Shown one piece after another: positions 7,550 to 43,661 of a DNA stretch of 64,000 nucleotides (positions within the stretch are counted from its first letter, which is position 1; every line of letters begins with the position of its first letter). Location of the stretch: positions 1 to 64,000 of the forward strand of contig JAUIFP010000002.1 in NCBI GenBank assembly GCA_030430365.1, given 5' to 3'. Under the pieces are notes generated by a model. It was not told the origin of the DNA and did not search any database. It saw nothing but the letters and a program-made list of their open reading frames with translations. Both the position numbers and the translations under genes were made by a program. The stretch is from Alphaproteobacteria bacterium. Lineage in GTDB: Bacteria > Pseudomonadota > Alphaproteobacteria > Sphingomonadales > Sphingomonadaceae.

Positions 7550-7602
7550 CCGGCGAATTCCATCTTACTGAGGCGCCCGCAAACCATCAGGAAGCTAGTC
7601 AA

Positions 7603-16902: not shown

Positions 16903-17064
16903 AATAAACTTTTCCCCGCAAATGTGTGATGTCTCATTGGGACACGCGCAGGCCCTCCTGACTATCCTCTTTTTGCGAAGTCTCCGATAATGTCTGTCGA
17001 AGATGCAGCTCGGACTTGCTCCGCAGGCCAAAAGCCTCTGAATGGAGTGTAAGGAGATTTGCAG

Positions 17065-23869: not shown

Positions 23870-23971
23870 TGCCGTCTGCTTCAGCAAGAACTGGACATAT
23901 AAGATAGGCTGATTAGTTAGGTAACGAATCTAATGTGTGGAAGTTGGCCACGCGCGTTTGGGAGCAGGACG

Positions 23972-25818: not shown

Positions 25819-26052
25819 CTATTCTGGGTCGAATACGACTTCGGCCATGCGCTTTGCCCATTCCTCGGGTGAAGGCATCAGCGTGATATCGTTGCGGTGG
25901 AGGATCTTCCATTCGCCATCCATCCGCACGAATTCGTCTTCGTACTGGCCGCTTAGCACGGGCGTGGGGCTGCCGTTCCTGCCCCTGATGATGGAGAGCT
26001 GGCGCGATTTGGCCATTCGATTATCGACGATGCCACCGTTCCGCCAACTCAA
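25819..26052 (-). pseudogene. N-terminally truncated SnoaL/NTF2-like domain remnant
   Basis: 77-aa ORF ends LSGQYEDEFVRMDGEWKILHRNDITLMP, matching the C-terminal strands of a SnoaL domain; N-terminal helices are absent. Confidence 0.45.
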
Positions 26053-26440: not shown

Positions 26441-28945
26441 ATGAAAATATCAGGGAGCATTAGTCACCGCCGCACGCAATTGGCGCTACTTTCGGTGACA
26501 GGTCTTGCAACCGTTATGGCGGCTGCACCGGCAGTCGCGCAAGACAACACCGGCGACGATAACGTGATCGTCGTGACGGCGCAGATGCGCGAACAGAATG
26601 TTCAGGATATTCCGCTGTCGATTACCGCGGTCAGCGGCGAAATGCTGGAAGCTCGCAGCCAGACAAACTTGCGCGAAATTTCGGCCCAGACGCCGAACGT
26701 ACTTCTGCAACAGAATCCATCAGGGCAAGGGAACTCGATGCGCGCCTTCATTCGCGGCGTTGGTCAATCCGACCAGAGCCCGTCAGTGGAGCCGGGCGTC
26801 GGTATCTACGTCGATGACGTCTATTTCGGTACGGTTACGGCATCTGCCTTCGACCTCGTGGATCTTGATCGCGTCGAAGTTCTGCGCGGACCGCAAGGCA
26901 CACTTGCCGGCATGAACTCGCAGGGTGGTGCGATCAAACTCTACTCTCGCAAGCCGGAAGGTGAAGGCGGTTATGTTGAAGCATCGGTCGGCACGATGGG
27001 GCGCCGCGATTTCAAGGCAAGCGCGGACTTCACCGTTGTCCCGGATTCCGTGTTCGCACGCGTAACCGGTGTTTCGCGCAATCGTGACGGGCATATCACC
27101 ATGTACAATTATGCTTGTCTCAATCCGGACGATCCGGATGTGGTTTCGGGCGCAATCCCGGGTCTGATCTCCAGCGGCGACTGCAAGAGCGGCGAACTGG
27201 GCAACCAGCAGATGTATGCTGTTCGTGGCGCTCTGCGTATTGCTCCCATCGGTAGCCCGCTCGAAGTCAACCTGATCGGTGATTATACCAAGGACACGTC
27301 GAACACCCAGGCATCGGTGCTGCTGGCATCGGCTGAGTCCGCCACCAAGGGCAACGCCAGCGGTTATATCGATCGTTCCGGCATGAGCATTCCCTATCAA
27401 GGCGTAGCTTATGACGACCGTTTTGTGCCTTATGGCCAGTATCGCCGCGCCGGATCCGTACTAAACGATCCCTACGCGACTTACGCGAATTTCTACGATC
27501 CGGGTGTTACCTATATGGCGATCGGTCCGCAGGTCGGGCCGCCCTCATCTGTACCTGCCGGCGATCCGAATGGTCCCTTCATTGCCGAGAATGCCAGCCA
27601 AGTTGAAGGTTGGGGTGTTTCCGGTACGATCGATTATGAACTCAGCGATACCCTCGCACTGAAGTCGATCACCGGATATCGCAGCTATGATACGGTTAGC
27701 GGCAACGACAACGATAATTCGCCAGTCGTGTTCATTCAAAGCTCCGACTGGTACGAACACGAGCAGTTCAGCCAGGAACTGCGCCTGTCGGGCAACCTCG
27801 CCGACAATACGGTGCACTTTACCATCGGCGGCATCTATTACGATGCGGCAACGCGCCCCCTTTCGCGCATTCATACGCCGTTCTCGGGCTTTGGTCCGCC
27901 GGACAAGCCGACCTTCTCCTTCCTCAATGACGATACGGCTGACGTGAAGGTGCTGGCCGGGTTCGCCAATGCAGCTTGGGACATCACCGAGGCATTGACG
28001 ATCGAAGGCGGAATCCGCGTCACGGACGAACAGAAGGACTACACCTTCGGCCGTCTGAATCCGGATGGCCGCAGCGACTATCTGCCGCTGTCCAATCCTC
28101 TGAACCAGCTCACGGGATTCACGGATACCTACAAGGCGACGATCACCGACTATCGTGCGGTCATCTCGTATAAGGTTACTCCGGATGTTATGACCTACGC
28201 GCAATTTGCGACTGGTCATAAGGGCGGCGGTATCTCGCCGCGTCCTTACAACGTCTTCCAGATCCGTCCCTTCGGTGCCGAAAAACTTCGTTCGTATGAG
28301 GCTGGCTTCAAGACCGACCTCATGGATCGCCGGGTGCGGATCAATGGCGCTGTGTTCTACATGGAATATCTTGGATACCAGGGTATCCCCGATTTCTGCA
28401 TTGACGAGAATGGCGATCGTGTTGACCAAAATCCACGCGGCCTTTGCGGTCAATATTTGAACCTTGCCGACGCTGAAGTGAAGGGCTTCGAACTGGAAGC
28501 CTTCCTTGAGCCGGTGGACGGTTTCAATATCGACGCATCGCTCAGCCTTACGGACTTCACCTTCGGTGCCCCGACTTATTCGACGACGTCGGTCGTCGAA
28601 GGCGCCAATCGTCCGGGCATTGGTGAATGGAAGTGGAGCGTTGGCGCTCAGTACGAGTTCGATCTTGGGGAGGCGGGCACGCTTACGCCGCGCGTAGATG
28701 TTGCCTATACACCGGGCTACTGCGGCAACTTCGCCTGCGATCCGAACGCAGTTGTCGAGAGCTATACTCTCGCCAATGCACGCTTGACCTTCCGCACGCT
28801 TGACAAGGATTGGCAGGTTTCGGTGGAAGCCACGAACCTGTTCGACAAGCTTTATTACATCAACAAGTTTACGAACGGCTTCTACGCGACCGGCCAGCCA
28901 GGACGCCCGGCCGAATACGCAGTTACAGTTCGCCGCAATTTCTGA
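26441..28945 (+). CDS. TonB-dependent outer membrane receptor
   Basis: Signal peptide; TonB-box-like VIVVTAQMREQNVQDIPLSITAVSGE; plug FIRGVGQSDQSPSVEPGVGIYVDDVYFG, DRVEVLRGPQGTLAGMNSQGGAIKL; terminal VRRNF. Confidence 0.96.
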   Translation: MKISGSISHRRTQLALLSVTGLATVMAAAPAVAQDNTGDDNVIVVTAQMREQNVQDIPLSITAVSGEMLEARSQTNLREISAQTPNVLLQQNPSGQGNSMRAFIRGVGQSDQSPSVEPGVGIYVDDVYFGTVTASAFDLVDLDRVEVLRGPQGTLAGMNSQGGAIKLYSRKPEGEGGYVEASVGTMGRRDFKASADFTVVPDSVFARVTGVSRNRDGHITMYNYACLNPDDPDVVSGAIPGLISSGDCKSGELGNQQMYAVRGALRIAPIGSPLEVNLIGDYTKDTSNTQASVLLASAESATKGNASGYIDRSGMSIPYQGVAYDDRFVPYGQYRRAGSVLNDPYATYANFYDPGVTYMAIGPQVGPPSSVPAGDPNGPFIAENASQVEGWGVSGTIDYELSDTLALKSITGYRSYDTVSGNDNDNSPVVFIQSSDWYEHEQFSQELRLSGNLADNTVHFTIGGIYYDAATRPLSRIHTPFSGFGPPDKPTFSFLNDDTADVKVLAGFANAAWDITEALTIEGGIRVTDEQKDYTFGRLNPDGRSDYLPLSNPLNQLTGFTDTYKATITDYRAVISYKVTPDVMTYAQFATGHKGGGISPRPYNVFQIRPFGAEKLRSYEAGFKTDLMDRRVRINGAVFYMEYLGYQGIPDFCIDENGDRVDQNPRGLCGQYLNLADAEVKGFELEAFLEPVDGFNIDASLSLTDFTFGAPTYSTTSVVEGANRPGIGEWKWSVGAQYEFDLGEAGTLTPRVDVAYTPGYCGNFACDPNAVVESYTLANARLTFRTLDKDWQVSVEATNLFDKLYYINKFTNGFYATGQPGRPAEYAVTVRRNF

Positions 28946-29105: not shown

Positions 29106-30212
29106 ATGGATTTTGATCGCCGCACACTGTTGACTGCCGCATCGGCAACCGCAGCATTGGGTGTTGCCGGTGGCGCCGCCGGCTCAGCGAAAGCAGTGCC
29201 TTCAAGCCAGATCCGCATCGGCACGGAAGAGGCCTTTTCCACCAAAGAACATATGAAGGCCATGAAAAATCTGGTCGATGCAAATCCGGAAGTGATACGC
29301 TTCGATTATAAGCTGTGGCGAATGATTACTTCCGATCTAGAGGCCGATACCCCCAAGCGCCTGTTAGATTTCGAGAATATTCGTATCCCCGAAATGGACG
29401 AATACGGCGTCACTATGCAACTGCTTTCGCTCACTTCACCAGGTGTGCAGATGCTCGATACGGATACGGCAATCGGCGTAGCGCGAAGCACGAATGATGA
29501 GTTGGCAGGTGTGATCAAGCGCCATCCAACGCGCTTCGCAGGCCTGGCAAGTGTGGCTCCGCAAAATCCGCAAGAGGCAGCACGAGAGATTGAGCGTGCG
29601 AAAACGCAGCTCAAGCTTAACGGCATCGTGATCAATTCGCATACCAACAACGAATATCTGGACGACCAGAAATACTGGCCGATCCTGGAGGCCGCTGAAG
29701 CCTTGGATATGCCGATTTACCTACATCCGCGCACACCATCCGATCAGATGCGTCCGCCTTTCGACGACTACAACATGGGGAGCGCCTTCTGGGGCTATGG
29801 TTTAGAAACGTCGACGCATTTTGTGCGCCTCATGATGAGCGGCTTGTTCGATCGTTTCCCCAAACTCAATGTCGTCCTGGGCCATATGGGCGAGGCGGTT
29901 CCTTTCTGGATCTGGAGGTTGGATTACATGAGCGCAGCGGGCGTGAGCCGCGGCGAAACGCCCATCAAGCTGAAGCCCAGCGAATATCTGCGCCGAAACC
30001 TCAAGATCACAACCAGCGGGCAGGAGAATCCCGACGCGCTGCGCTATTCTATCGAGACTCTCGGTGCGTGGAACGTGATGTGGGCGATCGATTATCCTTA
30101 TCAGGAGACGCCCGGAGCAGTCTATTTCATGGACAATGCGCCGATCTCGCAGGCTGAAAGAGATGCGATCTACTGGCAGAATGCGCAGCGCATCTTCAAC
30201 ATTCAACGATGA
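29106..30212 (+). CDS. Amidohydrolase_2 (ACMSD/decarboxylase-like) family protein with Tat-type signal
   Basis: MDFDRRTLLTAASATAALGVAGGAAGSAKA; IRIGTEEAF; IYLHPRTPSD; LNVVLGHMGEAVPFWIWRLDYM; NVMWAIDYPYQ. Confidence 0.88.
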   Translation: MDFDRRTLLTAASATAALGVAGGAAGSAKAVPSSQIRIGTEEAFSTKEHMKAMKNLVDANPEVIRFDYKLWRMITSDLEADTPKRLLDFENIRIPEMDEYGVTMQLLSLTSPGVQMLDTDTAIGVARSTNDELAGVIKRHPTRFAGLASVAPQNPQEAAREIERAKTQLKLNGIVINSHTNNEYLDDQKYWPILEAAEALDMPIYLHPRTPSDQMRPPFDDYNMGSAFWGYGLETSTHFVRLMMSGLFDRFPKLNVVLGHMGEAVPFWIWRLDYMSAAGVSRGETPIKLKPSEYLRRNLKITTSGQENPDALRYSIETLGAWNVMWAIDYPYQETPGAVYFMDNAPISQAERDAIYWQNAQRIFNIQR

Positions 30213-30249
30213 GCCGCTCCAACATGCTTGCGGCAATGGGAGAGAAAAA

Positions 30250-31374
30250 GTGCAAAGAAGGGATATTCTAGGTTTAGCTGGCGCAATTGGCGCTGCGGCT
30301 GCACTTCCAGGTGTGGCAAATGCGCAGCGCAGCCTGGAGGAAGGACGCTTCCCGAAACCGAGCGGGAAGTACAAACGGATCGGTACAGAGGCCGCTTTCG
30401 CAACCCAGCCACAGCTCGATGGTTTCCGGGATATCGGCAAATACCTTGCGGAAGGTGCGGACCTGTCCTTCACCCAGATTTTGCTGGGCGACAGTGATTA
30501 CGCCAAGGATATGACGCCGCGGCTTCTCAATATCGGGGAAGGGCGCATTGCCGAAATGGATGACGGCGGCGTCGCAATGCAAGTACTTTCGCTGACGTCG
30601 CCAGGTGTCCAACTGTTCAGCGCCGACACTGCGGTTTCGATCGCGCGGGAGAGTAACGATATCCTGGCCGAGGCAATCGCAAAGCATCCCAGCCGTTTTG
30701 CCGGGCTTGCCGCTTTGTCCCCGCAGGATCCGAAGCGTGCGGTAGTGGAGATGGAGCGAGCCGTAACGCGGCTCGGCCTCAATGGCTTCATCGTCAATTC
30801 GCACACTGACGGCCATTATCTCGATGAAGAGCAAAACTGGCCTATTCTCGAAGCGGCGGAGGCACTCGGTCGCCCGATCTACATCCACCCCCGTTCGCTG
30901 CCGGAAACTTCGATCGCTCCGTTTCGGCCATATGGGCTTGGCGGAGCTTCATGGGGTTATGCGGTGGAGACAGGTACGCACGGCATGCGTCTGCTTTTCA
31001 GCGGCGTCTTCGACCGTTTCCCCAACCTCAAGATCGTACTGGGGCATATGGGCGAAGGAATCCCTTATTGGGTCTATCGCTTCGATCACATGTATGAGAC
31101 TGCAAGGCGCAATTGGGGAACTGGCGGGCTCGTTAACACGCCAAGTTTCTACCTCAAGCGCAACATGATGATCACCACCAGTGGTATGTTCTCGGAATCA
31201 GTGCTGAAATACTGCCTCGAAGTGATCGGGCCGGACAACATCATGTGGGCGGCGGATTATCCCTATCAAAACAATCGTGAAGCAGCGGCTTTTCTTGATG
31301 CCGCTGCAATTCCGGAAACTCAGAAGATCCAGATTTATTCCGGAAATGCGGAGCGGATATTCCATTTGAACTGA
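30250..31374 (+). CDS. Amidohydrolase_2 (ACMSD/decarboxylase-like) family protein with Tat-type signal; paralog of preceding gene
   Basis: GTG start giving MQRRDILGLAGAIGAAAALPGVANAQ; RIGTEAAF; IYIHPRSLPE; LKIVLGHMGEGIPYWVYRFDHM; NIMWAADYPYQ. Confidence 0.88.
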   Translation: MQRRDILGLAGAIGAAAALPGVANAQRSLEEGRFPKPSGKYKRIGTEAAFATQPQLDGFRDIGKYLAEGADLSFTQILLGDSDYAKDMTPRLLNIGEGRIAEMDDGGVAMQVLSLTSPGVQLFSADTAVSIARESNDILAEAIAKHPSRFAGLAALSPQDPKRAVVEMERAVTRLGLNGFIVNSHTDGHYLDEEQNWPILEAAEALGRPIYIHPRSLPETSIAPFRPYGLGGASWGYAVETGTHGMRLLFSGVFDRFPNLKIVLGHMGEGIPYWVYRFDHMYETARRNWGTGGLVNTPSFYLKRNMMITTSGMFSESVLKYCLEVIGPDNIMWAADYPYQNNREAAAFLDAAAIPETQKIQIYSGNAERIFHLN

Positions 31375-31420: not shown

Positions 31421-32347
31421 TTATTCCCAAGGCGTAGGCATATTGAGCGGAATGAAGGTCACGACGCCTTCCGCATCCATGACCGTGTCTCCTTCGATGC
31501 GCACGAGTTCGGCAACAAGCCGGCTCATCGGATAGGGGCGTTGCAGTTCCACCTCGGTGCCATCGGCAGCGAAGAAGCTCGCTTCCTTGGCAGGCAGATC
31601 CTGAACGCTGATGGCGACGACCAATCCGCGCTCTGTGTCGACCACGGGGAAGCGCCGGTCGCGAATGCGCTCGACCGGAGCGAACAGGCCAGCGCTGAAG
31701 ACGGAGGCGCAATCCTTCTGGGCCGGGTCGATTTCTCCTTCCGCGGAAGAAATCTGCACGCCGTTTTCCAGCATTTTGCAGTCTTCGCCGAAGTCGGCCA
31801 GCAACGTGCCGTTATTGCGCTGCTTGGTCGCGAGGTAGTTGTCTGCGACATCGATCAACCTGTCGCGCGAGCGGCGATCGGATGCATTGACCATGCCCGT
31901 CATGTCGTCCGAAATTGCGAATGCGCGCGGATCGCCAAACGGCATGGGCCAGGGCGTGCGTCCAGCGATCACTTCGATCTCGCTGATCTCGCCGTCCGGC
32001 GCCTTGATCCGCACAGCGCCGAAGGATGGTTCGTCATGGTCCCAGATCGTGCCGAACCACATGACGTTGCCAGTGGTTTCGTCCGCGACCGCCAGCGCCT
32101 TCGAGCCGACAGTTTCGCCGACCGAGCCCCACCAGGCGTCGCCGATCGTCAGCGAAACATTGTTCTCGGTATAATAGACGGGATCGGGATCGACCCAGGG
32201 CAGACGCTGATAATCCTGTTCTGCAATGGCGACCGTGAATTCGTCTGCAAGTTTCAGCAGGCATGCTTCGTCGCAGCTTCCGGCGGAGGCGGGGCTGGCG
32301 GCCAAGGCGATGGCACTCGCGGTGATAAGGCTGGCAAGCGCGCGCAT
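31421..32347 (-). CDS. Secreted NTF2-like/DUF8021-type protein
   Basis: Signal peptide MRALASLITASAIALAASPASAG; CDEACLLKLADEFTVAIAEQD, YTENNVSLTIGDAWWGSVG, RDRRFPVVDTERGLVVAI, shared with the next upstream gene. Confidence 0.6.
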   Translation of the reverse strand: MRALASLITASAIALAASPASAGSCDEACLLKLADEFTVAIAEQDYQRLPWVDPDPVYYTENNVSLTIGDAWWGSVGETVGSKALAVADETTGNVMWFGTIWDHDEPSFGAVRIKAPDGEISEIEVIAGRTPWPMPFGDPRAFAISDDMTGMVNASDRRSRDRLIDVADNYLATKQRNNGTLLADFGEDCKMLENGVQISSAEGEIDPAQKDCASVFSAGLFAPVERIRDRRFPVVDTERGLVVAISVQDLPAKEASFFAADGTEVELQRPYPMSRLVAELVRIEGDTVMDAEGVVTFIPLNMPTPWE

Positions 32348-33321
32348 TATTGGTCTCCCTCGTCGGCCCAGGGCGAATGCATGCCATAGGGAACGTAATC
32401 GAAGCTCGCTTCGATGGTGAAAATCTTGCCGTCGATGATCTTGAAGGCTTCCATGATCGAAAGCGAATTGGGCCATTTCAGAAGCGTCTTCATGGTTCGG
32501 CCATCGGTCAGTTCGTATTCGTCGAAATAGTTCGCGTGATCGAAGAAGTTCATGCCCACGACGATGCCGCGTTCGACGTCGATCAGGGGGAAGCGCCGCT
32601 CGCGCAGCTGCTTGTTGATCCGGTAAATGCCGAGTTTGAACTGTTCTTCGCAGCCCTGAGCCACGGATGCGGAGTTGTTCGAGTTCTTGGTAACGGCAGT
32701 TGTGCTGATGCCGTTTTCGAGCCGCGAGCAATCGTCCGTGAAATGGGCAAAGACCTGCCCGTCATTATATTCGACCGTGTTGAAATAGGAATCCGCGATG
32801 GCGCGCAGCCTTGCGCGCGGCTTGGCCTGATCTTCGGGGACGGCCTCCGTCCAGGCCGGGTGATGCGGCTCTTCGCCGGTGCCGAAGATCAGCGGCATGC
32901 CGGTGACGCGCGAGACCACCGTTTCGGCCTCGTCGATTTCGCCGGCGCGGCTGACATGCAGCCTTATGGCCAGGAAAACCAGATTGCCGTGCTCATAGGC
33001 ATGGCCGAACCAGGCGACATTGCCGGTCACCACGTCGGCCGGCATCATGCCGTCGGCGGGGTCTGCCGCACTGACGGAGCCCCACAGGCCTTCGCCGATT
33101 GGCATCTCGACACTGTTTTCGGTGAAGCGAACATCTTCGGCAAAGGGCGCCCGCGAGGGATCCTTTGCATTCAGCGCCTCGACATAGGAGAGCGCGAAAC
33201 CTTCCAGGCAAGCTCTATCGCAATTGCTGCGCGGAAGCGCCGTCTCTTCGCCATACGCCTGCGCGCAGACGGGGGCCGCCGCAACCAGGCAGATTGCCCC
33301 AAGGGCACTGCGGATCATCAT
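32347..33321 (-). CDS. Secreted NTF2-like/DUF8021-type protein; paralog of downstream gene
   Basis: Signal peptide MMIRSALGAICLVAAAPVCAQA; CDRACLEGFALSYVEALNAKD, FTENSVEMPIGEGLWGSVS, RERRFPLIDVERGIVVGM; TAATG overlap with the next gene. Confidence 0.6.
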   Translation of the reverse strand: MMIRSALGAICLVAAAPVCAQAYGEETALPRSNCDRACLEGFALSYVEALNAKDPSRAPFAEDVRFTENSVEMPIGEGLWGSVSAADPADGMMPADVVTGNVAWFGHAYEHGNLVFLAIRLHVSRAGEIDEAETVVSRVTGMPLIFGTGEEPHHPAWTEAVPEDQAKPRARLRAIADSYFNTVEYNDGQVFAHFTDDCSRLENGISTTAVTKNSNNSASVAQGCEEQFKLGIYRINKQLRERRFPLIDVERGIVVGMNFFDHANYFDEYELTDGRTMKTLLKWPNSLSIMEAFKIIDGKIFTIEASFDYVPYGMHSPWADEGDQ

Positions 33322-33520: not shown

Positions 33521-34105
33521 ATGCGAAAAACTCGTTTGGCAGTGCCTCTTGCAATGGCTGCGGCCATGGCATTCCCGGCATGGGCCGCACATGCGGAAGA
33601 CCAGCAGGAACTCACCCTGGAACAGCGGGTGGACCAGCTGGAATCGGAAAAGCAGATCCGCGAAGTCATCATCGAATATGGCGAATATCTCGATGCCCGT
33701 GACTATGCCGGCTATGCTTCTCTATTCGCCAGCGACGGGACCTGGACCGGTGGGTTCGGCAACGCAACCGGCCCTGCGGCCATTCAGAAGATGCTGGAAG
33801 ACAATCTGGGCATTCCGGAAGAGGGCTTCGTCAATAAGGACAACTTCCATCTGGACACGACTGTGATCGTCGACGTGCACGGCGATACGGCAGAGGCGCG
33901 CTCGCGCTACATGTTCTACACGCGCACTGAAGACAATCGCCCGCGTCCGCTGCTGGCGGGCCGCTATTTCGATGAATTCGTCCGCGAGAACGGCGAATGG
34001 AAGATCAAGACCCGCAAGTCCCACGGCGTGATTCCCTATCGTGACGGCAATGCTCCGCCGCCGGACGCGCCGCCGCCGGGTGTACAGGATGTCATGAAGA
34101 AATAG
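33521..34105 (+). CDS. SnoaL/NTF2-like protein, secreted (signal peptide)
   Basis: MRKTRLAVPLAMAAAMAFPAWAAHA signal; IREVIIEYGEYLDARDYAGYASLFASDGTWTGGFGNATGPAAI; LLAGRYFDEFVRENGEWKIKTRKSHG. Confidence 0.88.
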   Translation: MRKTRLAVPLAMAAAMAFPAWAAHAEDQQELTLEQRVDQLESEKQIREVIIEYGEYLDARDYAGYASLFASDGTWTGGFGNATGPAAIQKMLEDNLGIPEEGFVNKDNFHLDTTVIVDVHGDTAEARSRYMFYTRTEDNRPRPLLAGRYFDEFVRENGEWKIKTRKSHGVIPYRDGNAPPPDAPPPGVQDVMKK

Positions 34106-34135
34106 GCTTGCCGGACTGAACAGCGCGGCAGGCAA

Positions 34136-34564
34136 TCATGCTTCAGGCACGGGGAGGTCCAAAGCGACGTCCCTGCGCCTGAAGCGCCATCCTTCCGGCA
34201 GTTTGATCAGGTCGTCTGAATAGCTCCCGGCGAGAGCAGGCCGGATTCCATCCGCGCCTTGTTCGAGCAGGAGCCAGCGCGACCAGCAGCTTGCACTTGC
34301 ACCCTCGCTGGCGATGGTGATCGAAAAATTGCTGAAGATGTGCACGCAAGGCGGCGTGCCTGCGAATTCTCTGGCAACGAACTCGGCCAGGGCAGGCCGC
34401 CCGGAGATGACGCCATAGTGATCGCCGCCAATCCATTCGCCATCTGGTGCGAACAGCGAAGCCCAGCCCAATGCATCGCGCAGGTCGAGCAGGCGGCCAT
34501 ATTCCGCCATCAAACGCCGGATGGCTTCCGTCTCTTCGCAATTGCAGGCTGGAGCTTGATCCAT
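34136..34564 (-). CDS. SnoaL/NTF2-like protein
   Basis: EAIRRLMAEYGRLLDLRDALGWASLFAPDGEWIGG; LAGSYSDDLIKLPEGWRFRRRDVAL. Confidence 0.82.
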   Translation of the reverse strand: MDQAPACNCEETEAIRRLMAEYGRLLDLRDALGWASLFAPDGEWIGGDHYGVISGRPALAEFVAREFAGTPPCVHIFSNFSITIASEGASASCWSRWLLLEQGADGIRPALAGSYSDDLIKLPEGWRFRRRDVALDLPVPEA

Positions 34565-34766
34565 GGTTTCGGAAGGCGTTCCCTCACTGTTTCACCGGGC
34601 TGGATACCGCGCGATTGCAGCGTTGCCAAAGCACGCGGCCAATCCGGTCTACCTGCGCAGCCAGATCGGTCTACCGGCAACCGGGAAATCCCGGTTTATT
34701 GAAGTGCAACGGCAAACTAGAACTGTGTTTGTCTGCAGGCTGCAAATCAGCCGCATGGGAGAATAG

Positions 34767-35285
34767 ATGTCTGACGCTGCTATGCCGCCCGGTTCCGGAG
34801 CGGCACAATCCGTTGAAGAACGCCTGCGCGCCTTGGAGGATGAACGCGAGATTCGCGATCTCATCATTACCTATGCGCAGCGGCTCGATGCGCGCGATCA
34901 CAAGGGATACGCGCGGCTGTTTGCACGGGAAGGGCGCTGGTCCGGCCGGATGGGAGACGCGACCGGCCCCGAGGCGATCGAGGCGATGCTGGTGGAAGGG
35001 TTCGGCCCCATGCCAGAGAATTTCGTCAACACCCAGAACTTTCACCTGATGAGCAACATCGTCATCGAAGTGGATGGCGACCGTGCGAAGGCGGAATCCC
35101 GCCTCGTTTATTTCGTGCGCACGGCCGAAGCGAAGCCCACGGCCATGCTCGCCGGGCGGTATTATGATGAGCTGGTGCGCGAAGACGGGCGCTGGCGCTT
35201 TTCTTACCGCCGCGTGGTCGGCGAGATACCGACCCGCGATGAGCGCCCAGTCAGAACACCGGAGGAAGATGGACATGTCCGCTGA
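34767..35285 (+). CDS. SnoaL/NTF2-like protein
   Basis: EIRDLIITYAQRLDARDHKGYARLFAREGRWSGRMGDATGPEAIEAML; LAGRYYDELVREDGRWRFSYRRVVGEIP. Confidence 0.88.
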   Translation: MSDAAMPPGSGAAQSVEERLRALEDEREIRDLIITYAQRLDARDHKGYARLFAREGRWSGRMGDATGPEAIEAMLVEGFGPMPENFVNTQNFHLMSNIVIEVDGDRAKAESRLVYFVRTAEAKPTAMLAGRYYDELVREDGRWRFSYRRVVGEIPTRDERPVRTPEEDGHVR

Positions 35286-35928
35286 GCGGCAAGAACGTAT
35301 CGAAGCGCGTATCGCGCAGCTGAATGCAGAGCTGCAGAAGCGCGAGGACTACCAGGCGATCATACGCCTGCAGCGGGCCTATGGCTTCTATATCGACAAG
35401 GGATACTGGCGGGATGCCAGCGATCTTTTCACTGAAGACGCCACTTACGAACAGGGTGTCGACGGCGTCTTTGTCGGGCGCGACCGTATCCATCAGGTCA
35501 TCGTGAAGCTTTCCGGCGGCAATCCCGGACCGGGCCTGCCTTTCGGACAGCTTTACGAGCGCTTTCAGCTTCAGCCGGTGATCAGCGTCTCTGAAGACGG
35601 GCAGAGCGCCTTCGGGCGCTGGCACGAACTTGCCATGCTCGGCCAATATGGCGAACACGCCGAATGGGGGGAGGGCGTCTACGAAAACCGCTATCGCAAG
35701 GAAGATGGCGTCTGGAAGATCGCCGCGCTGCACTATTTTCCCAACTTCGTGGCCCCCTATGAAGGCGGCTGGGCTGTGCTCAAACCGGTCGAAGGTGACT
35801 GGCGCTCGCCCGAATTGGCCGACTTCCCGCCCGATGCACCTCCCACGGTGAACTACAAGCCGTTTCCGGACCAATTCACGGTGCCGTTCCACTATCCCCA
35901 TCCGGTCACCGGAAAGGCGGTGGCGTGA
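35275..35928 (+). CDS. SnoaL/NTF2-like protein, long form with YPHPVTG tail
   Basis: IRLQRAYGFYIDKGYWRDASDLFTEDATYEQGVDGVFVGRDRIHQ; VYENRYRKEDGVWKIAALHYFPNF; VNYKPFPDQFTVPFHYPHPVTGK. GGAGG upstream of ATG 35275. Confidence 0.88.
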   Translation: MSAERQERIEARIAQLNAELQKREDYQAIIRLQRAYGFYIDKGYWRDASDLFTEDATYEQGVDGVFVGRDRIHQVIVKLSGGNPGPGLPFGQLYERFQLQPVISVSEDGQSAFGRWHELAMLGQYGEHAEWGEGVYENRYRKEDGVWKIAALHYFPNFVAPYEGGWAVLKPVEGDWRSPELADFPPDAPPTVNYKPFPDQFTVPFHYPHPVTGKAVA

Positions 35929-37265
35929 TGAGTGAACACCTGCTCGACGCGCTGGAAGCGCATCTCGATTCCATCGAGCTCAGGATTGCCCGCCAGGCCT
36001 CTCACGAGGCGATAGAGCGGCTCCAGCGCTCATACTGCTATTTCATCGATAGGGGGCTCTGGACGGCCGCAGCAGACCTCTTCGCGGACGATGCGACGGG
36101 GGAATGGGGACAAAGCGGCGTATACAAGGGCAAGGAACGCATTCGTTCCTATCTCGCCCTGCGCGGGCCCGAAGGCCTCGGCGAGGGCGAGCTCAACACC
36201 CATATCACGTGCCAGCCAATCATTACCGTTGCCGATGACAACATGTCTGCCAAGTCGCGCTGGCGCAGCGACAATATGCATTGCACCGATGGCACTGGCA
36301 GTTGGAGCGAAGGGACCTACGAAAACGTCTACGTCAACGATGGCGGTGTCTGGAAGACCGCTTCCATGCATTATTACGTCACGCTGATCTGCGATTACGA
36401 CAAGGGGTGGATCGCGGGCGATATCCCTATGGATCCACCCAGCGAGACGCTGCCGCCGGATTCTCCGCCGACGGAAGTCTATGAATCGCTGCCAGGTGCC
36501 TATCTGCCGGCTTATCATTATCCCAATCCCGTGACGGGAGAGCAGCCGAAGAAGCCCGACCTTCCCGAATTGCCGGAAAGCGGCAAGGACACGCTGGCCG
36601 ATGCAGTTGCGGCGCTTTCCACCAGGGTCGAGCGGCTCGAAGACCAGCGGGCCTGTGAGAAGCTTCAGCGCAGCTATGGCTTCTATGTCGACAAGGCGAT
36701 GTGGAACGACGTGTCCGATCTCTTCGTGGACGATTCAACGCTGGAAATCGGCGGCCGCGGTGTCTTCCTGGGCAAGAAGCGCGTGCTCGAATATATGGGC
36801 ATTGGCCTCGGGCCTACCGGTCCGCAGCGCGAACAGATCATCAACCATCAGCAGTTCCAGGGCGTCGTCACCGTAGCCGAAGACGGCAAGACGGCGCGCG
36901 GACGCTGGCGCGCCTTCGTTATTGGCGGCAGTTCGTGGGCACCGGTCAATTGGGGCGATTGCCTGTATGAGAACCACTACAAGAAGGTGGATGGCGTCTG
37001 GGTGATGGACAAGCTGCATGCACCGTTCACCATGTACACGCTCTATTCCGACGGATGGCACAAGGCGACCACGCCCAATACGCGGCCCGAAAGCTTCCCG
37101 CCGCCGCCCGATCTGGCACCCACGGTGGTCTATCTGACCTATCCCAACTATTATTGCGAGCCGTTCCACTATCCCAATCCGGTCACCGGAAAGGAGGCGC
37201 CGCCACCCAATCCTGCAGCGGGAGGAGTGGCGAATATGGCGGACTTCGCCAGCGAAGAGAGTTGA
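35925..37265 (+). CDS. Tandem two-domain SnoaL/NTF2-like protein
   Basis: Two complete domains: IERLQRSYCYFIDRGLWTAAADLFADDATGEWG...YHYPNPVTGE and CEKLQRSYGFYVDKAMWNDVSDLFVDDSTLEIGGRGVFLGKKRVLEYM...FHYPNPVTGK. Confidence 0.88.
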   Translation: MMSEHLLDALEAHLDSIELRIARQASHEAIERLQRSYCYFIDRGLWTAAADLFADDATGEWGQSGVYKGKERIRSYLALRGPEGLGEGELNTHITCQPIITVADDNMSAKSRWRSDNMHCTDGTGSWSEGTYENVYVNDGGVWKTASMHYYVTLICDYDKGWIAGDIPMDPPSETLPPDSPPTEVYESLPGAYLPAYHYPNPVTGEQPKKPDLPELPESGKDTLADAVAALSTRVERLEDQRACEKLQRSYGFYVDKAMWNDVSDLFVDDSTLEIGGRGVFLGKKRVLEYMGIGLGPTGPQREQIINHQQFQGVVTVAEDGKTARGRWRAFVIGGSSWAPVNWGDCLYENHYKKVDGVWVMDKLHAPFTMYTLYSDGWHKATTPNTRPESFPPPPDLAPTVVYLTYPNYYCEPFHYPNPVTGKEAPPPNPAAGGVANMADFASEES

Positions 37266-37271
37266 ACGGGA

Positions 37272-38651
37272 GTGAGCTCTCCCCCGGATTTGTCGGTCAA
37301 AGCCGCTGAGACGTCAGGCAATGTCGACGCTCTGATCGATCTGCCGCGGCTGACCGGCCTGCAGATCGGATTGTTCCTGATTTGCGCTTTCGTGCTGTTC
37401 GCAGAAGGCTACGATTTGCAGGCGCTGGCGCTGGCCGTACCGCAGATTTCCGGGGAGTTTGGCATCCCGCCGGCGGATTTCAGCCTGGCCCTTTCCGCCA
37501 GCCTGCTGGGCATGGCGCTGGGCGGGGCAGGGTTCGCTCCGCTGGGCGACAGGATCGGACGAAAGCCGATGCTGATCCTTGCCATGGTGCTGACCGGCGG
37601 TAGCACGCTGGGTGCACTGATATATCCGACCACCTATTGGATTGCTTTTTGCCGCCTGATCACGGGGGTTGGGCTGGGCGTCACGACTGTCAATGCATCG
37701 GCCATGATGAGCGATTACGCGCCCGCCAGATGGCGGTTCATGATCATGACGGTCGTCAATTGCTCTGTGCCACTGGGCGCTTTCAGCGCGGCCATGATTG
37801 CCCCGGACATTATCGAGCATATGGGATGGCGCGGCATCTTCTGGATCGGCGGCTGGGTACCGTTGGGGGCTGCAGTGGTCGTCTGGCTGGCCATGCCTGA
37901 ATCTCTCAAATGGCTGGTTGCCGTGCGCCCCGGCGATCGGCGTATCGCGCGGATTGCCCGCTCCATTGCGCCGGGCATCGATCCGGCGAAGCTGTTCCTG
38001 TCCGAGCGCGAGGAGCATACCCGTCAGTCGGTACTTGGGCTGATGTCCCCCAATCACCGCGTCCGCACGCTGGTTGCGTGGCTCGGCACTGCGGCAGGCG
38101 CCTTCTGCCTTTACATGATGATTTCCTGGCTGCCGACCGTGCTGCGCGAAGCGCAATGGAGCACGACCGACGCCTTGCGCGGAACTGCAGCAGTCCAGCT
38201 GGGCGGTATCTTCGGCGGGTTGCTGATCGCCTGGGCGATCGACCGGCGCTGGCTCGTGGCGGCAATTGTGGCCGGCTATGGCGTATCCTCGGTCGGCCTG
38301 CTCAGTATCGGTCTGCTGCCCGAAAGCGTGCTCGGCTGGCAGTTTCTGTTGTTGCTTGTCGGGGCGGGCATATCCGGCATGCAGGGGATATGGATGTCGA
38401 TTGCGGTCGGGCTCTATCCGCTCGAACTCAGGGCGACCAGTGCCGGCTGGATGGCCGCGATCAGCCGCATCGGTGCCGTATCGGCGCCGTTCGCCGGGGG
38501 ATTGGCGGTTGCCGCCAGTATGGAGGCCAGGAACCTGTTGATGGCGCTGGTGGTCCCGATCGGGGCGACCGTCATCGCAGTAGTGCTGGCGCGCAAACAT
38601 TTCGTTCCGCCGCCGCCGGTGGTGGAAGAAGGAGAAAAGCCGAATGAATGA
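37272..38651 (+). CDS. MFS transporter, aromatic acid:H+ symporter (AAHS)-like
   Basis: EGYDLQALALAVPQISGEFGI, LGDRIGRKPMLI, ARWRFMIMTVVNCSVPLGA; ~12 hydrophobic segments; GTG start. Confidence 0.85.
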   Translation: MSSPPDLSVKAAETSGNVDALIDLPRLTGLQIGLFLICAFVLFAEGYDLQALALAVPQISGEFGIPPADFSLALSASLLGMALGGAGFAPLGDRIGRKPMLILAMVLTGGSTLGALIYPTTYWIAFCRLITGVGLGVTTVNASAMMSDYAPARWRFMIMTVVNCSVPLGAFSAAMIAPDIIEHMGWRGIFWIGGWVPLGAAVVVWLAMPESLKWLVAVRPGDRRIARIARSIAPGIDPAKLFLSEREEHTRQSVLGLMSPNHRVRTLVAWLGTAAGAFCLYMMISWLPTVLREAQWSTTDALRGTAAVQLGGIFGGLLIAWAIDRRWLVAAIVAGYGVSSVGLLSIGLLPESVLGWQFLLLLVGAGISGMQGIWMSIAVGLYPLELRATSAGWMAAISRIGAVSAPFAGGLAVAASMEARNLLMALVVPIGATVIAVVLARKHFVPPPPVVEEGEKPNE

Positions 38652-39210
38652 ACAGGAAATGGCGGCGTTGGCGGCCGATATCCGCTATCTCAAGGATCGG
38701 GCCGATATTCTAGATTGCATGAACCGCTATACGCGGGGTGCGGATCGCCTGGACCGGGATCTCCTGCTGTCGGCCTATCATCCAGATGCCACCGACGATC
38801 GCGGCGCCTTTACGGGCGGCCCTGTAGCACGGGTCGATTGGTTGCTGGCCTATCTCAGGACACTCGATCACACGACTCATCACATCACCAATTTCACTTT
38901 CGATATCGATGGCGATGTCGCGCATTGCGAAAGCTATGTCCTTACAACTCTGATGCCGGCGGGCTCGAAGGAGGCCACGATCGGTTGCGCTCGCTATATT
39001 GACCGGTTCGAACGGCGCTCCGGCGAATGGAAGATCGCGCACCGCGAAGCGGTGATGGACTTCAACTTCACTGTGCCCACAAGTGAGCTTCCGCCCAAAG
39101 TGCTCAGCAGCGCGAGGGACCGAACCGACAGATCCTATGCCCGCCCGCTGGAACTTACCGCCGAAGGGCTGGCCAGGATGCAGGCCGGGCTCAATTCGCC
39201 TGCGGACTAA
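38644..39210 (+). CDS. SnoaL/NTF2-like protein
   Basis: DILDCMNRYTRGADRLDRDLLLSAYHPDATDDRGAFTGG; HHITNFTFDIDGDVAHCESYVLT; RYIDRFERRSGEWKIAHREAVMDF. Confidence 0.9.
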   Translation: MNEQEMAALAADIRYLKDRADILDCMNRYTRGADRLDRDLLLSAYHPDATDDRGAFTGGPVARVDWLLAYLRTLDHTTHHITNFTFDIDGDVAHCESYVLTTLMPAGSKEATIGCARYIDRFERRSGEWKIAHREAVMDFNFTVPTSELPPKVLSSARDRTDRSYARPLELTAEGLARMQAGLNSPAD

Positions 39211-39433
39211 GTGCCGCGATCTCGCCTTCCACAACAAGGTTTGAGCGCGAGCGGGGGCTAATCACGCATCGAATCATGTTATAATTGAACATTTAGAGTT
39301 ACTAGGATGCGAAGCACATTAGCCACACTCTGGCACTGGTTTTCCCGCGGACCTGTACAAGGCTTGCCTATTGCCGCGGCGTTCCATATCCAGTTTCGCC
39401 AAAGTGAGCGTAGACTGACTTGGAGGAGAGGCC

Positions 39434-40393
39434 TTGTCGCAAGTCACAGATAGACCTTGCGAATTTCTGCGTCCCCTTGTCGATTTGAGTAATGTCGAAC
39501 AAGGTGACCGGGCGCTGACGTGGGACGTCGCGGTTCGCAATACATTTCCCGGATTGTCGGTTAAGCTGGAGAGCGGCGGGGTCTCTTTCGGTTCGATCAA
39601 CTGCATGCCGATCGGATCGGGGCAGCTTTTCCAGATCGATTCCGAACCTGCGCTGGTGAGCTTTCGGCCTCCCAAGATGGACACGATTGTTCCGCATTTC
39701 TCGCTGATGGTGCAGTCGAAAGGCACGATGGTCGCAAGCCAGGCGGGCCAGGTCTGCATGCTGGGCGAAGGCGATCTCTGCATGATCGACGAGGCGAAGG
39801 CATTTCGCCTGACTGGCGAAGAGCGGACCGAGTTCCTGCTGCTGAGGCTGCCGCGTGCTGCGGTGCTTAGCCGCTATCCGCATCTTGAACGCGTGATCGC
39901 CAGCACCCTTTCCGGCCACGAACCGGGCACCAAACTTCTCAGCGAGACATTGCTGCGCCTGGCGAGCGAGGCAGGCCTGCTGCAGGACCTTCAGCGCAGC
40001 GCGATGATGAATGCCATCATTCACATGCTGGGCGTGGCAGAGCCGTTCCTCGGCCTGCCTGCCGGTGCCGATTGGCGTGTGCGCCGCGCGCTCGACTATA
40101 TCGAGCTCAATCTGTCGGTCGCAGGGCTGACGGCGGAAGTTGTGGCGCAGGACCAGCATATCAGCCGCCGCAGGCTGGACCAGCTGATGCACGACGCTTT
40201 CGGCCATTCCATCGCAAGCCATCTTTGGAGCCGTAGGCTGGAGCAAGCCGCTGCAGATTTGCGTGATCCCCACCGTTCCGACCTGTCGATTGCGCAAATA
40301 GCCTTCGCGAACGGCTTTGAGGATGCGGCCCATTTTACGCGGGCGTTCAAGCGCAAATATCGCATTACACCAGGGCAATGGCGACTGAACTGA
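39434..40393 (+). CDS. AraC-family transcriptional regulator
   Basis: C-terminal double HTH: LSVAGLTAEVVAQDQHISRRRLDQLMHDAFGHSIASHLWSRRLEQAAADLRDPHRSDLSIAQIAFANGFEDAAHFTRAFKRKYRITPGQWR; TTG start. Confidence 0.92.
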   Translation: MSQVTDRPCEFLRPLVDLSNVEQGDRALTWDVAVRNTFPGLSVKLESGGVSFGSINCMPIGSGQLFQIDSEPALVSFRPPKMDTIVPHFSLMVQSKGTMVASQAGQVCMLGEGDLCMIDEAKAFRLTGEERTEFLLLRLPRAAVLSRYPHLERVIASTLSGHEPGTKLLSETLLRLASEAGLLQDLQRSAMMNAIIHMLGVAEPFLGLPAGADWRVRRALDYIELNLSVAGLTAEVVAQDQHISRRRLDQLMHDAFGHSIASHLWSRRLEQAAADLRDPHRSDLSIAQIAFANGFEDAAHFTRAFKRKYRITPGQWRLN

Positions 40394-40537
40394 CGGGAGA
40401 GCCGTGAGGCTTGAGGAAGGCTCACACGGTCAAGCCGTGATTCCAGTTTGGTCCATTCAAAGGGGTGTTCAGACGATTCAGCGCGCCTATCATGTCCCAA
40501 AGGCTGCACCAAAGCAGCGCTGATATGTAGAGGACTG

Positions 40538-41293
40538 ATGAGGCATTCAACTCTCGCATCCACGGGATTGCTCCGGGCTGCTCTCGCTCCGATCAAGATC
40601 GCGGCGCTTGCGGCACCCGCTTTCCTGCTGGCGCCGCAAGCCGCCCATGCACAATCCGCCATCGATCAGGAAATCGACGCGCTTACGACGCGTGTCGAAG
40701 TGCTCGAAGGCACTCGCGCAGTTAAGAAGCTGCAGCGTGCCTTCGGCTTCTATGTCGACCGCGGGCTGTGGGGAGAAGCTGCCGACCTGTTTGCCGATAA
40801 TGGCACGATCGAGATCGGTCTTGACGGCGTCTATGTCGGCAAGGACCGGATCGAAGAATATCTGCGCCGCCTGCATGGCGGGCAGGAGGGGCTCATCTAT
40901 GGCCAGCTCAACGAATGGGTGACGCTGCAGCCAGCTATTTCCGTGGCTTCCGATGGCCGCTCCGCAACTGCGCGCTGGCGCGACAATGGCATGCTTGGCC
41001 AGTACAAGGAGCATGCCGAATGGCGCGATGGTATCTACGAGAATACCTATGTGAAGGAAGGCGGGATCTGGAAAATCCAGTCCCTGCACCTGTACGTGAA
41101 CTTCCTGGCGCCCTTCGAAAAGGGCTGGGCGCGTCTCGAGCCGGGCGAAGGGCTGCAGCCGAGCGAAACTTCCCAGGCGTTTCCGCCCGATCGTGGGCCC
41201 AGCGTAAACTACAAGCCGTTCCCCGATGTACAGATTCCGCCATTTCAGGCGCCTAACCCGGTGACCGGCCAACCTGTGAAAGGAGCGATGTGA
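40538..41293 (+). CDS. SnoaL/NTF2-like protein, long form, secreted
   Basis: Signal peptide ending AAHAQ; VKKLQRAFGFYVDRGLWGEAADLFADNGTIEIGLDGVYVGKDRIEEYL; VNYKPFPDVQIPPFQAPNPVTGQ. Confidence 0.88.
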   Translation: MRHSTLASTGLLRAALAPIKIAALAAPAFLLAPQAAHAQSAIDQEIDALTTRVEVLEGTRAVKKLQRAFGFYVDRGLWGEAADLFADNGTIEIGLDGVYVGKDRIEEYLRRLHGGQEGLIYGQLNEWVTLQPAISVASDGRSATARWRDNGMLGQYKEHAEWRDGIYENTYVKEGGIWKIQSLHLYVNFLAPFEKGWARLEPGEGLQPSETSQAFPPDRGPSVNYKPFPDVQIPPFQAPNPVTGQPVKGAM

Positions 41294-42060
41294 TGCGCAC
41301 AGGCAAAAAGCTCCTGCAGTTCTGCTGCATCGCCGCAGTAGGGCTGACGCCGCTGACACTTGCGACGCCCACCATGGCCCAATCGGTGGAGGCCCGCCTT
41401 GCAGCCTATCGTGAACGTGTGGAGCGTTTGGAGGACCAGGCCGCGATCGAAAACCTCCAGGCGAGCTTCGGCTATTATTTCGACAAGGGCCTGTGGGATG
41501 AGGCAGCTTCGCTGTTCGCCGATAACGGCACCTACGAATATGAACAGCAAGGCGTCTATGTCGGCAAGGATCGTATCCAGCGTGCAATGTTGCTGCTGGG
41601 GCCGCAAGGGCTGGCACCGGGCTATCTCAACAATCACATGATGCTTCAAAACGTCATCATCGTCGACGATGACGGGCAAACGGCGACTGGCCGTTGGCAG
41701 GGGCCGATCCAGCTTGCTGAACCAGGTGCCAATGGCGAATGGGCAGTCGGCATCTACGAGAATGAATATGTGAAGGATGGCGGCGTCTGGAAGATTTCCA
41801 AGCTGCACTTCTATCTGACTGCCAAGACGGATTATGACCGGCCCTATACATCAGGCTCTCAGCCCATGCAGGGACAGAGCGCTTTGTTCCCGCCGGATCG
41901 TCCGCCAAGCGAAGTCTATCGCAGCTTCCCGGCGGCTTATATTCCGCCGTTCAGCTTCAAGCATCCTGTGACGGGTGAACCACTGACTGACCTGCCGATG
42001 GCAGGCGACGATGTCGTGGGGCGTGCGCCGATCGAATTCGAAGACGAAGCGGGCGAATGA
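41290..42060 (+). CDS. SnoaL/NTF2-like protein, long form, secreted
   Basis: Signal peptide ending TMAQ; IENLQASFGYYFDKGLWDEAASLFADNGTYEYEQQGVYVGKDRIQRAM; YIPPFSFKHPVTGE. Confidence 0.88.
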   Translation: MMRTGKKLLQFCCIAAVGLTPLTLATPTMAQSVEARLAAYRERVERLEDQAAIENLQASFGYYFDKGLWDEAASLFADNGTYEYEQQGVYVGKDRIQRAMLLLGPQGLAPGYLNNHMMLQNVIIVDDDGQTATGRWQGPIQLAEPGANGEWAVGIYENEYVKDGGVWKISKLHFYLTAKTDYDRPYTSGSQPMQGQSALFPPDRPPSEVYRSFPAAYIPPFSFKHPVTGEPLTDLPMAGDDVVGRAPIEFEDEAGE

Positions 42061-42860
42061 TGCTCCGCAGGATTGCTTCAGCTGCATCTCGTGCTGCGCT
42101 TGCAGCGCCATTGCTGCTTGTCGCCGCGCCCGCGGCCGCGCAGTCGGCAAGCGAGCGCCTAGATGAACTGGATGCGCGAATTTCCCGTCTGGAGGATATG
42201 AACCAGATCGAGCGGGTTCAGCGCACCTACGGGTATTTCGTCGACAAGGGACAATGGACGCCGCTTGCCGAGCTGTTCACCGAAGATGCGACGCTGGAAA
42301 TCGGAGGGAAAGGCATCTTCCTGGGGCGGGACCGCGTGCTCGAATATATGCAGACTGCATTCGGCAAGGATGGCGCGGGTGAGGGGCGCCTGGCCAACCA
42401 CATGCAGTTTCAGCCTATCCCCGACATTTCGCCGGACGGTGAGACGGGATGGATCCGTTCGCGAGCCTACGTGATGAGCGTCGGCTGGGGGCTGCCGCTC
42501 TACGAAAACGAATATGAGAAGGGCGAAGACGGCAAGTGGCGGATCAGCCGCCTGACCGGGCCTTTCACCATGTACACAAGCTGGGAAGGGTGGGGCAAAT
42601 GGGCCATGAACAACACCTGGCCCGACAAGTTCGATCCGCCGCCGGATCTGCCGCCATCGGTCGTCTATCTGACCTATCCGGCCTATTACATCATCCCATT
42701 CCATTATCCGAACCCGGTGTCCGGTGAGGCCTTCATTCCCGATACGGGCGAAGTCGGAGCCTATCACCGGCCGCCCGGAAATCCCGAACAGGCCGCCTCG
42801 CTGAAAGTGGGGCGCACTGCCAACGGGACACAACCGATTGCCGAACCTCCAAGGGACTGA
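42057..42860 (+). CDS. SnoaL/NTF2-like protein, long form, secreted
   Basis: Signal peptide ending PAAAQ; IERVQRTYGYFVDKGQWTPLAELFTEDATLEIGGKGIFLGRDRVLEYM; VVYLTYPAYYIIPFHYPNPVSGE. Confidence 0.88.
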   Translation: MMLRRIASAASRAALAAPLLLVAAPAAAQSASERLDELDARISRLEDMNQIERVQRTYGYFVDKGQWTPLAELFTEDATLEIGGKGIFLGRDRVLEYMQTAFGKDGAGEGRLANHMQFQPIPDISPDGETGWIRSRAYVMSVGWGLPLYENEYEKGEDGKWRISRLTGPFTMYTSWEGWGKWAMNNTWPDKFDPPPDLPPSVVYLTYPAYYIIPFHYPNPVSGEAFIPDTGEVGAYHRPPGNPEQAASLKVGRTANGTQPIAEPPRD

Positions 42861-43661
42861 GTGATGGCCAGGAACAGAACTTTTGCCGGTTTGGCAGCTG
42901 CAGCGATGCTTGCGGTGACTGCAATGCCCGCGCAGGCGCAGACCGCCAGCGAGAAACTGGATGCGCTTAATATGCGGATCGAGCGGCTCGAAGGCATGAA
43001 CCAGATCGAGCGCCTGCAGCGGACCTATGGCTATTTCGTCGACAAGGCGCAGTGGTCCCAGCTTGCGGAGCTTTTCACCGAAGATGCGACGCTGGAGATC
43101 GGCGGCAAGGGCCTGTTCGTCGGCAAGCACCGGGTGCTTGAATATATGCAGAAGTCCTTCGGCAAGGATGGCATACGCCCCGGCGTACTCATCAATCACA
43201 TGCAGTTTCAGCCGATCCCGGATATCTCCGCAGATGGAAAAACGGGGTGGCTGCGCCAACGCGCCTATGTGATGGCCAATGGCGGATGGGGCTTGCCGCT
43301 CTACGAAAACGAATACCGCAAGGGTGACGATGGCAAGTGGCGGATCAGCCGTCTGACCGGGCCGTTCACCATGTATACCGACTGGGAAGGGTGGGGTGAG
43401 AACGCCACGAACAACACTTGGCCGGACAAGTTCGGACCACCGCCGGATCTACCGCCCACGGTCATCTATCTGACCTATCCGGGCTATTACATCATACCCT
43501 ACCACTATCCGAACCCTGTAACGGGCAAGGCTTTCATACCTGATCAAGGCGAGGTGGGGGCCTATCACCGTCCACCAGGCACTGCAGAGCAGGAAGCCAC
43601 TTTGAAGGCTGGGCGTACGGTGTACGGGACACAGCCGATCATGGAACCGCCAAGGGATTGA
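42861..43661 (+). CDS. SnoaL/NTF2-like protein, long form, secreted; close duplicate of preceding gene
   Basis: Signal peptide ending PAQAQ; IERLQRTYGYFVDKAQWSQLAELFTEDATLEIGGKGLFVGKHRVLEYM; VIYLTYPGYYIIPYHYPNPVTGK. Confidence 0.88.
   Translation: MMARNRTFAGLAAAAMLAVTAMPAQAQTASEKLDALNMRIERLEGMNQIERLQRTYGYFVDKAQWSQLAELFTEDATLEIGGKGLFVGKHRVLEYMQKSFGKDGIRPGVLINHMQFQPIPDISADGKTGWLRQRAYVMANGGWGLPLYENEYRKGDDGKWRISRLTGPFTMYTDWEGWGENATNNTWPDKFGPPPDLPPTVIYLTYPGYYIIPYHYPNPVTGKAFIPDQGEVGAYHRPPGTAEQEATLKAGRTVYGTQPIMEPPRD

Follow-up and report, generated by a model that had tools for sequence, protein, structure and literature searches.

The window analysed here, a stretch of 64,000 nucleotides from a sphingomonadaceous alphaproteobacterium (assembly GCA_030430365.1, contig JAUIFP010000002.1, positions 1 to 64,000), carries at 33521-43661 a dense array of genes for NTF2-fold proteins of the SnoaL_4 type. 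The best interpretation of the array is that it encodes two copies of an enzyme with three subunits, related to LdpA (diarylpropane gamma-formaldehyde lyase), together with accessory short SnoaL and double-NTF2 proteins, rather than eleven pathway steps. Its seven longer domains probably represent two versions of one enzyme, an obligate A:B:C heterotrimer (1:1:1) with C as the main catalytic subunit and with LdpA-like chemistry. The 1:1:1 heterotrimer is suggested because domains of a trimer-forming type come in threes, in a fixed order and with every adjacent fusion, one subunit having mostly lost the catalytic residue.

The SnoaL_4 array and its two A-B-C copies

All ten open reading frames (ORFs) listed for 33521-43661 in the first-pass annotation were present, and its count of eleven SnoaL/NTF2-like domains was reproduced exactly: 11 of 11 matched Pfam PF13577 SnoaL_4 above the curated cut-off of 24 bits, the single-domain ORFs with 71-103 bits and ORF 35925 with 165 bits for both domains together. 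None of the ORFs fell into an unrelated fold in the Pfam search, every one being SnoaL_4. A scan of the whole 3.02 Mb assembly gave 39 SnoaL_4 matches, eleven of them in the array, against approximately 0.13 expected per random 10 kb by arithmetic from the same scan; eleven such domains in about 10 kb far exceed chance. The clustering was kept in other genomes, contrary to what scattered singletons would give. An artefact or chance match was ruled out, all domains scoring above the cut-off and being present in many genomes: the array is real and conserved. A search for plasmid carriage gave no close plasmid match. The genes for a major facilitator superfamily (MFS) transporter and an AraC regulator inside the array were as described, but that description had overlooked two flanking minus-strand NTF2 ORFs (U1 and U2) and the internal A-B-C order.

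The seven longer domains share a C-terminal extension of about 60 residues and pair off between two sets: S4 with S7 (A, 51% identity), S5a with S8 (B, 46%), and S5b with the C proteins at 42057 (51%) and 42861 (48%). Because of this pairing, sequence comparison identifies them as two copies of one A-B-C set, the first consisting of A and a BC fusion and the second of A, B, C and C'. The genes are as follows.

35275..35928, plus strand: copy 1 subunit A (S4), without signal peptide; falls in the A clade (100/96)
35925..37265, plus strand: copy 1 B-C fusion (S5a, S5b) in one ORF, without signal peptide; two SnoaL_4 domains, assigned by profiles and trees
40538..41293, plus strand: copy 2 subunit A (S7), Sec-type signal sequence, Trp in place of LdpA His97
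41290..42060, plus strand: copy 2 subunit B (S8), signal sequence
42057..42860, plus strand: copy 2 subunit C (S9), signal sequence, equivalent of LdpA His97 retained
42861..43661, plus strand: copy 2 C', an additional C subunit with 79% identity to C, signal sequence

The BC ORF of copy 1 begins 4 bases inside the A gene; in copy 2, A/B and B/C overlap by 4 bases and C and C' abut. A heuristic scan (not SignalP) found clear signal sequences in the copy 2 proteins and none in those of copy 1.

Relation to LdpA

The best solved relatives of the searched longer domains were 8abt, 8abu, 8abv and 8abw (E 1e-18 to 1e-47), by their structure titles NaLdpA and SpLdpA, and the similarity covered the full LdpA chain including the C-terminal extension (profile E 8e-47, positions 28-234). 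The kinship with LdpA suggested at first pass thus held for the seven longer domains, but not as orthology. In the domain tree, A and C each made a clade (100/96 and 100/98, ultrafast bootstrap, both starred), and the two solved LdpA grouped with nine other genes in a clade of their own (100/99) without A, B or C; on these sequence grounds the three subunits are not LdpA orthologues. A separate LdpA-clade gene is located on another contig of the same genome. B as a single clade was not rejected (approximately unbiased, AU, test, p 0.45). In a wider quick tree the A, B and C groups that include the window proteins were each starred (98, Shimodaira-Hasegawa-like approximate likelihood ratio test, SH-aLRT) and largely mirrored each other in internal branching; therefore, the three parts appear to have travelled together, fused forms included. 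More divergent sphingomonad fusions, designated T1-T2-T3, were not counted as A-B-C sets, because AU tests neither supported nor rejected a grouping of A with their first domains and of B with their second (p 0.35 and 0.25).

Active-site residues and predicted fold

According to its title, 8abu is the NaLdpA H97Q mutant with substrate, and H97Q is the change that sets it apart from 8abt; His97 is thus the residue that was mutated for trapping the substrate. In the alignment column of LdpA His97, histidine was present in all C subunits (50/50) and in 38 of the 46 B subunits, of which the periplasmic type had it in 34/35 and the cytoplasmic type in 4/11 (Tyr in seven). Only 6 of the 46 A subunits had it: the periplasmic type carried Trp in 34 and His in one of 35, and the cytoplasmic type Arg in six and His in five of 11. 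The name cytoplasmic type is used for the clade to which copy 1 belongs, although signal sequences do occur in some of its members. The equivalent of LdpA Asp40 was conserved in 142/142 domains, and in a profile search the A-B-C Asp and His aligned with those of BaiE.

A natural ABC fusion of 664 residues (L123:9920-11911), modelled by AlphaFold together with 16 relatives, gave a predicted local distance difference test (pLDDT) score of 82.6 and a predicted template modelling (pTM) score of 0.88, and the top PDB matches of the model by Foldseek were LdpA. Because this pTM was reached for three equal domains, their packing is confidently predicted.

Distribution, gene order and fusion forms

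Among 60 relatives, adjacent trios were found in several genera, together with proteins of 640-755 residues containing three domains. An alignment of A subunits, used to scan the representative genomes of GTDB, yielded 79 loci, in which domains were assigned by subunit profiles; 73 clusters, the two of the window included, were located away from contig ends. Exactly three domains were present in 62 of these 73 complete clusters: as three separate genes (1-1-1) in 31, as a single three-domain ORF in 19, and as a 1-2 split in 11 or a 2-1 split in one. The remainder comprised four A-B-C-C' clusters, one with two sets, five single domains and one pair. The order was fixed in all forms seen, i.e., separate A, B and C, A plus BC, AB plus C, and one ABC chain. 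Assembly error as the source of the fusions was ruled out, since the 19 three-domain ORFs and 12 two-domain splits came almost without exception from independent contigs. The complete genome of Sphingobium sp. SYK-6, which contains five SnoaL genes with three domains, further countered this explanation.

The hosts included Altererythrobacter, Croceibacterium, Sphingobium (with the complete SYK-6) and Caulobacteraceae and, beyond the Alphaproteobacteria, Gammaproteobacteria (Steroidobacteraceae, Nevskiaceae) and metagenome-assembled genomes (MAGs) of Acidobacteria/Vicinamibacteria, with MAG taxonomy as deposited. Within the family of the window organism the A subunit was patchy (about 11 of 151 genomes). 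The genome of the window also encodes multidomain proteins of the short SnoaL_4 type outside the A-B-C group, one of 493 amino acids with three domains (L046:7733-9211; G000:C64) and one of 351 amino acids with two (L047:6783-7835; G000:C114).

Genomic context

Of the 39 periplasmic-type loci, 34 encoded a quinohaemoprotein alcohol dehydrogenase dependent on pyrroloquinoline quinone (PQQ-ADH), whose gene as a rule followed C immediately. A strictosidine-synthase/gluconolactonase-like propeller was encoded in 27, mostly right in front of A, and 23 had U-type proteins. Apparent S1 matches beside the loci were ignored, since they were often the A-B-C ORFs themselves. No PQQ-ADH adjoined copy 2 in the window, and six genes of that family were present elsewhere in the genome. 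This context supports a stage of periplasmic oxidation and cofactor-free elimination acting on a bulky alcohol-bearing compound, for which lignin-derived dimers would be the leading candidates by homology with LdpA/PcfL.

In SYK-6, the genes for A, B, C and PQQ-ADH form an operon at about 1.330-1.335 Mb. Its proximity to LdpA was considered and dropped, as the region 1.27-1.37 Mb holds no LdpA-clade gene. Directly upstream of A, this organism encodes a fusion protein (L094:8013-9947) that joins a double NTF2 domain of the U type with a gluconolactonase/strictosidine-synthase-like propeller. Five SYK-6 ORFs contain the second, more divergent three-domain set T1-T2-T3 (L154:2887-5045 and 6429-8605, and L157; 1.313-1.319 Mb and 3.036-3.043 Mb), whose relatives were found near TonB receptors, U-type proteins, amidohydrolases and PQQ-ADH.

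Proposed enzyme and alternative explanations

Beyond the observed homology, order, fusions, residue pattern and operon context, we infer a physical heterotrimer and, for it, a chemistry and a substrate. A, B and C would assemble 1:1:1, replacing the homotrimer usual for the SnoaL_4 fold, with copy 2 exported to the periplasm and copy 1, in which B and C are fused, remaining cytoplasmic, its genes next to that of an importer. C would supply the catalytic Asp-His pair of LdpA, LinA and BaiE, while A, and in some lineages also B, having lost the His, would probably shape the pocket, stabilise C or bind the substrate at another part. As to chemistry, a cofactor-free proton-transfer elimination (dehydration, retro-aldol or deformylation) of a bulky, probably aromatic and plant-derived compound is likely. 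In most relatives this reaction would be coupled to the oxidation of an alcohol in the periplasm, carried out by the neighbouring PQQ dehydrogenase.

Scytalone dehydratase, BaiE and LinA are dehydratases and a dehydrochlorinase. LinA, with its catalytic pair Asp25-His73, and scytalone dehydratase are trimers (PMC3507683), as is BaiE (PMC13101464). They share with A-B-C the SnoaL_4-fold family and, in the case of C, the Asp-His dyad, but are each made of identical subunits from one gene, and these papers report neither an A/B/C division nor a three-domain fusion. LdpA and PcfL, the closest solved relatives, have the long C-terminal extension and the equivalents of Asp40 and His97 that are present in C; in contrast to these single-gene products, A-B-C comprises three subunit types in separate clades, occurs in fused and in exported forms, and has lost His97 in A. 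A two-part precedent for a mixed or fused NTF2-fold enzyme is provided by MonBI, which is inactive alone and activates MonBII, and by the two-domain fusion Lsd19, both systems being polyether epoxide hydrolases (PMC13311259, PMC8827043). However, these are two-part, dimer-type, biosynthetic systems, not SnoaL_4/LdpA-like. Natural fusion of partner subunits, as in the MonBI-MonBII type, was present here (A plus BC, AB plus C, ABC), a likeness in working and not in sequence membership, and the loss of His in A resembles, suggestively only, the inactive-partner arrangement of that pair.

Several points weigh against the heterotrimer. The trimer analogy comes from LinA, scytalone dehydratase and BaiE; the packing of the fusion, and with it a putative threefold geometry, was judged from pTM; and the signal-peptide calls came from our own heuristic scan. 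The loci were found with an A-subunit query, so that the sample is biased towards A-containing sets, and C-like single genes occur without A or B. Finally, when the most divergent loci are included, the domains at positions 1, 2 and 3 are not grouped into one clade per position; the three-part design may therefore be ancient, with later reshuffling, or may have evolved repeatedly.

Among the alternatives, the one that survives best, although we consider it unlikely, is that A, B and C each form a homotrimeric enzyme of their own, the three catalyzing successive steps of one pathway and being linked, sometimes by fusion, for co-expression or channelling. Every subunit has a full NTF2 domain and a signal peptide to itself, the C-like genes can stand alone and three genes are kept in most loci, all of which would suit separate enzymes. 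Such enzymes would hardly be expected nearly always in exactly three, in one order and in every adjacent fusion pattern, with most A lacking the catalytic His; the high pTM of the fusion model and the trimeric state of related enzymes argue in the same direction. The multi-step route proposed at first pass became less likely for similar reasons, as the set is fused elsewhere in all adjacent combinations and the catalytic His is lost in some subunits.

It is still less probable that the genes are recently amplified LdpA-like lyases, selected for breadth on lignin dimers, with order and fusions being incidental. The close relation to LdpA, the recent C/C' duplication (79% identity) and the abundance of NTF2 homologues in lignin degraders, with 62 in SYK-6 according to a review (PMC12997858), all fit such an amplification, yet only C/C' is recent: the A/B/C split predates the separation of the sphingomonad and related gammaproteobacterial loci, by descent or transfer, and the set numbers three nearly wherever present. 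Eleven lyases with divergent specificity, the other early proposal, are likewise not the best reading, seven of the domains being two copies of a fixed three-subunit set.

Finally, it is very improbable that A-B-C are mainly binding or carrier proteins, serving the PQQ dehydrogenase or an importer by delivery of a hydrophobic compound: non-catalytic NTF2-fold families exist, A is without His and several relatives resemble lipoproteins, but the Asp-His pair is invariant in C and common to LdpA, and copy 1 is cytoplasmic and does not adjoin a PQQ-ADH in the window.

Other genes of the window

The remaining members of the array and its immediate neighbours are listed below.

26441..28945, plus strand: TonB-dependent receptor upstream of the array; related receptors occur near several A-B-C loci
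31421..32350, minus strand: U1, secreted, unknown family, predicted double NTF2 fold by homology, 31% identical to U2
32347..33321, minus strand: U2, secreted, predicted double NTF2 fold, Lsd19/limonene-epoxide-hydrolase-like (AlphaFold/Foldseek)
33521..34105, plus strand: S1, short SnoaL_4 protein (Pfam) with an N-terminal signal sequence read directly
34136..34564, minus strand: S2, short SnoaL_4 protein (Pfam)
34767..35285, plus strand: S3, short SnoaL_4 protein (Pfam), 49% identical to S1 by pairwise comparison
37272..38651, plus strand: MFS transporter; nearest NCBIfam model 2A0115, aromatic acid/H+ symporter
38644..39210, plus strand: S6, short SnoaL_4 protein (Pfam) after the MFS gene, in the same order in relatives
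39434..40393, plus strand: AraC-family regulator (profile search)

U1 and U2 had no Pfam or NCBIfam match. The likeness of these neighbours to Lsd19 is one of fold, for U2 by Foldseek (E 1.3e-6) with an AlphaFold model of pLDDT 88.9 and pTM 0.87. The MFS match to the aromatic acid/H+ symport model falls below the cut-off of that model; the MFS gene and S6 follow copy 1 in close relatives as well. Of the short domains S1, S2, S3 and S6, the one tested, S3, matched generic SnoaL_4 structures only.

Further upstream, the minus-strand segment 25822-26082 contains a weak fragment, its part 25891-26013 matching the end of SnoaL_4, and is probably a gene remnant. A tandem Amidohydro_2 pair with twin-arginine-like signal sequences (29106-31374) lies between the TonB receptor and U1 and was not found beside the array in the near-identical locus L066. 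As an impression from the sequence only, 17059-19013 encodes a UbiD-like decarboxylase adjoining a UbiX-like flavin prenyltransferase in an aromatic catabolic region. The flavin-containing monooxygenase (FMO)-like protein of 23933-25759 has about 165 extra N-terminal residues resembling an NTF2-type domain, which Pfam did not confirm as NTF2.

Implications

SnoaL_4-type NTF2 enzymes, such as LinA, BaiE and LdpA, have been studied as single-gene products, homotrimers where known. A literature search of limited coverage, which does not prove absence, found no three-domain or heterotrimeric SnoaL proteins described, and the three-part arrangement is not described in the available part of the review counting 62 NTF2 homologues in SYK-6 (PMC12997858). 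As a tentative generalization, held with less confidence than the heterotrimer itself, these loci might define a previously undescribed class of obligate heterotrimeric NTF2-fold lyases of Alpha- and Gammaproteobacteria and Acidobacteria, encoded as separate A, B and C, A plus BC, AB plus C or ABC. Such lyases would act mainly in the periplasm, where together with a PQQ alcohol dehydrogenase they would initiate the attack on bulky aromatics from plants before these are imported, and a cytoplasmic twin would take over the imported product. If the heterotrimer, with labour divided among its subunits, is true, annotation and assay of many unassigned NTF2 homologues in lignin-degrading sphingomonads would change, and screens of single proteins would overlook an activity for which all three subunits are required. 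A periplasmic stage in the catabolism of bulky compounds would likewise be indicated, which could be tested directly in the operon-bearing laboratory strain SYK-6.

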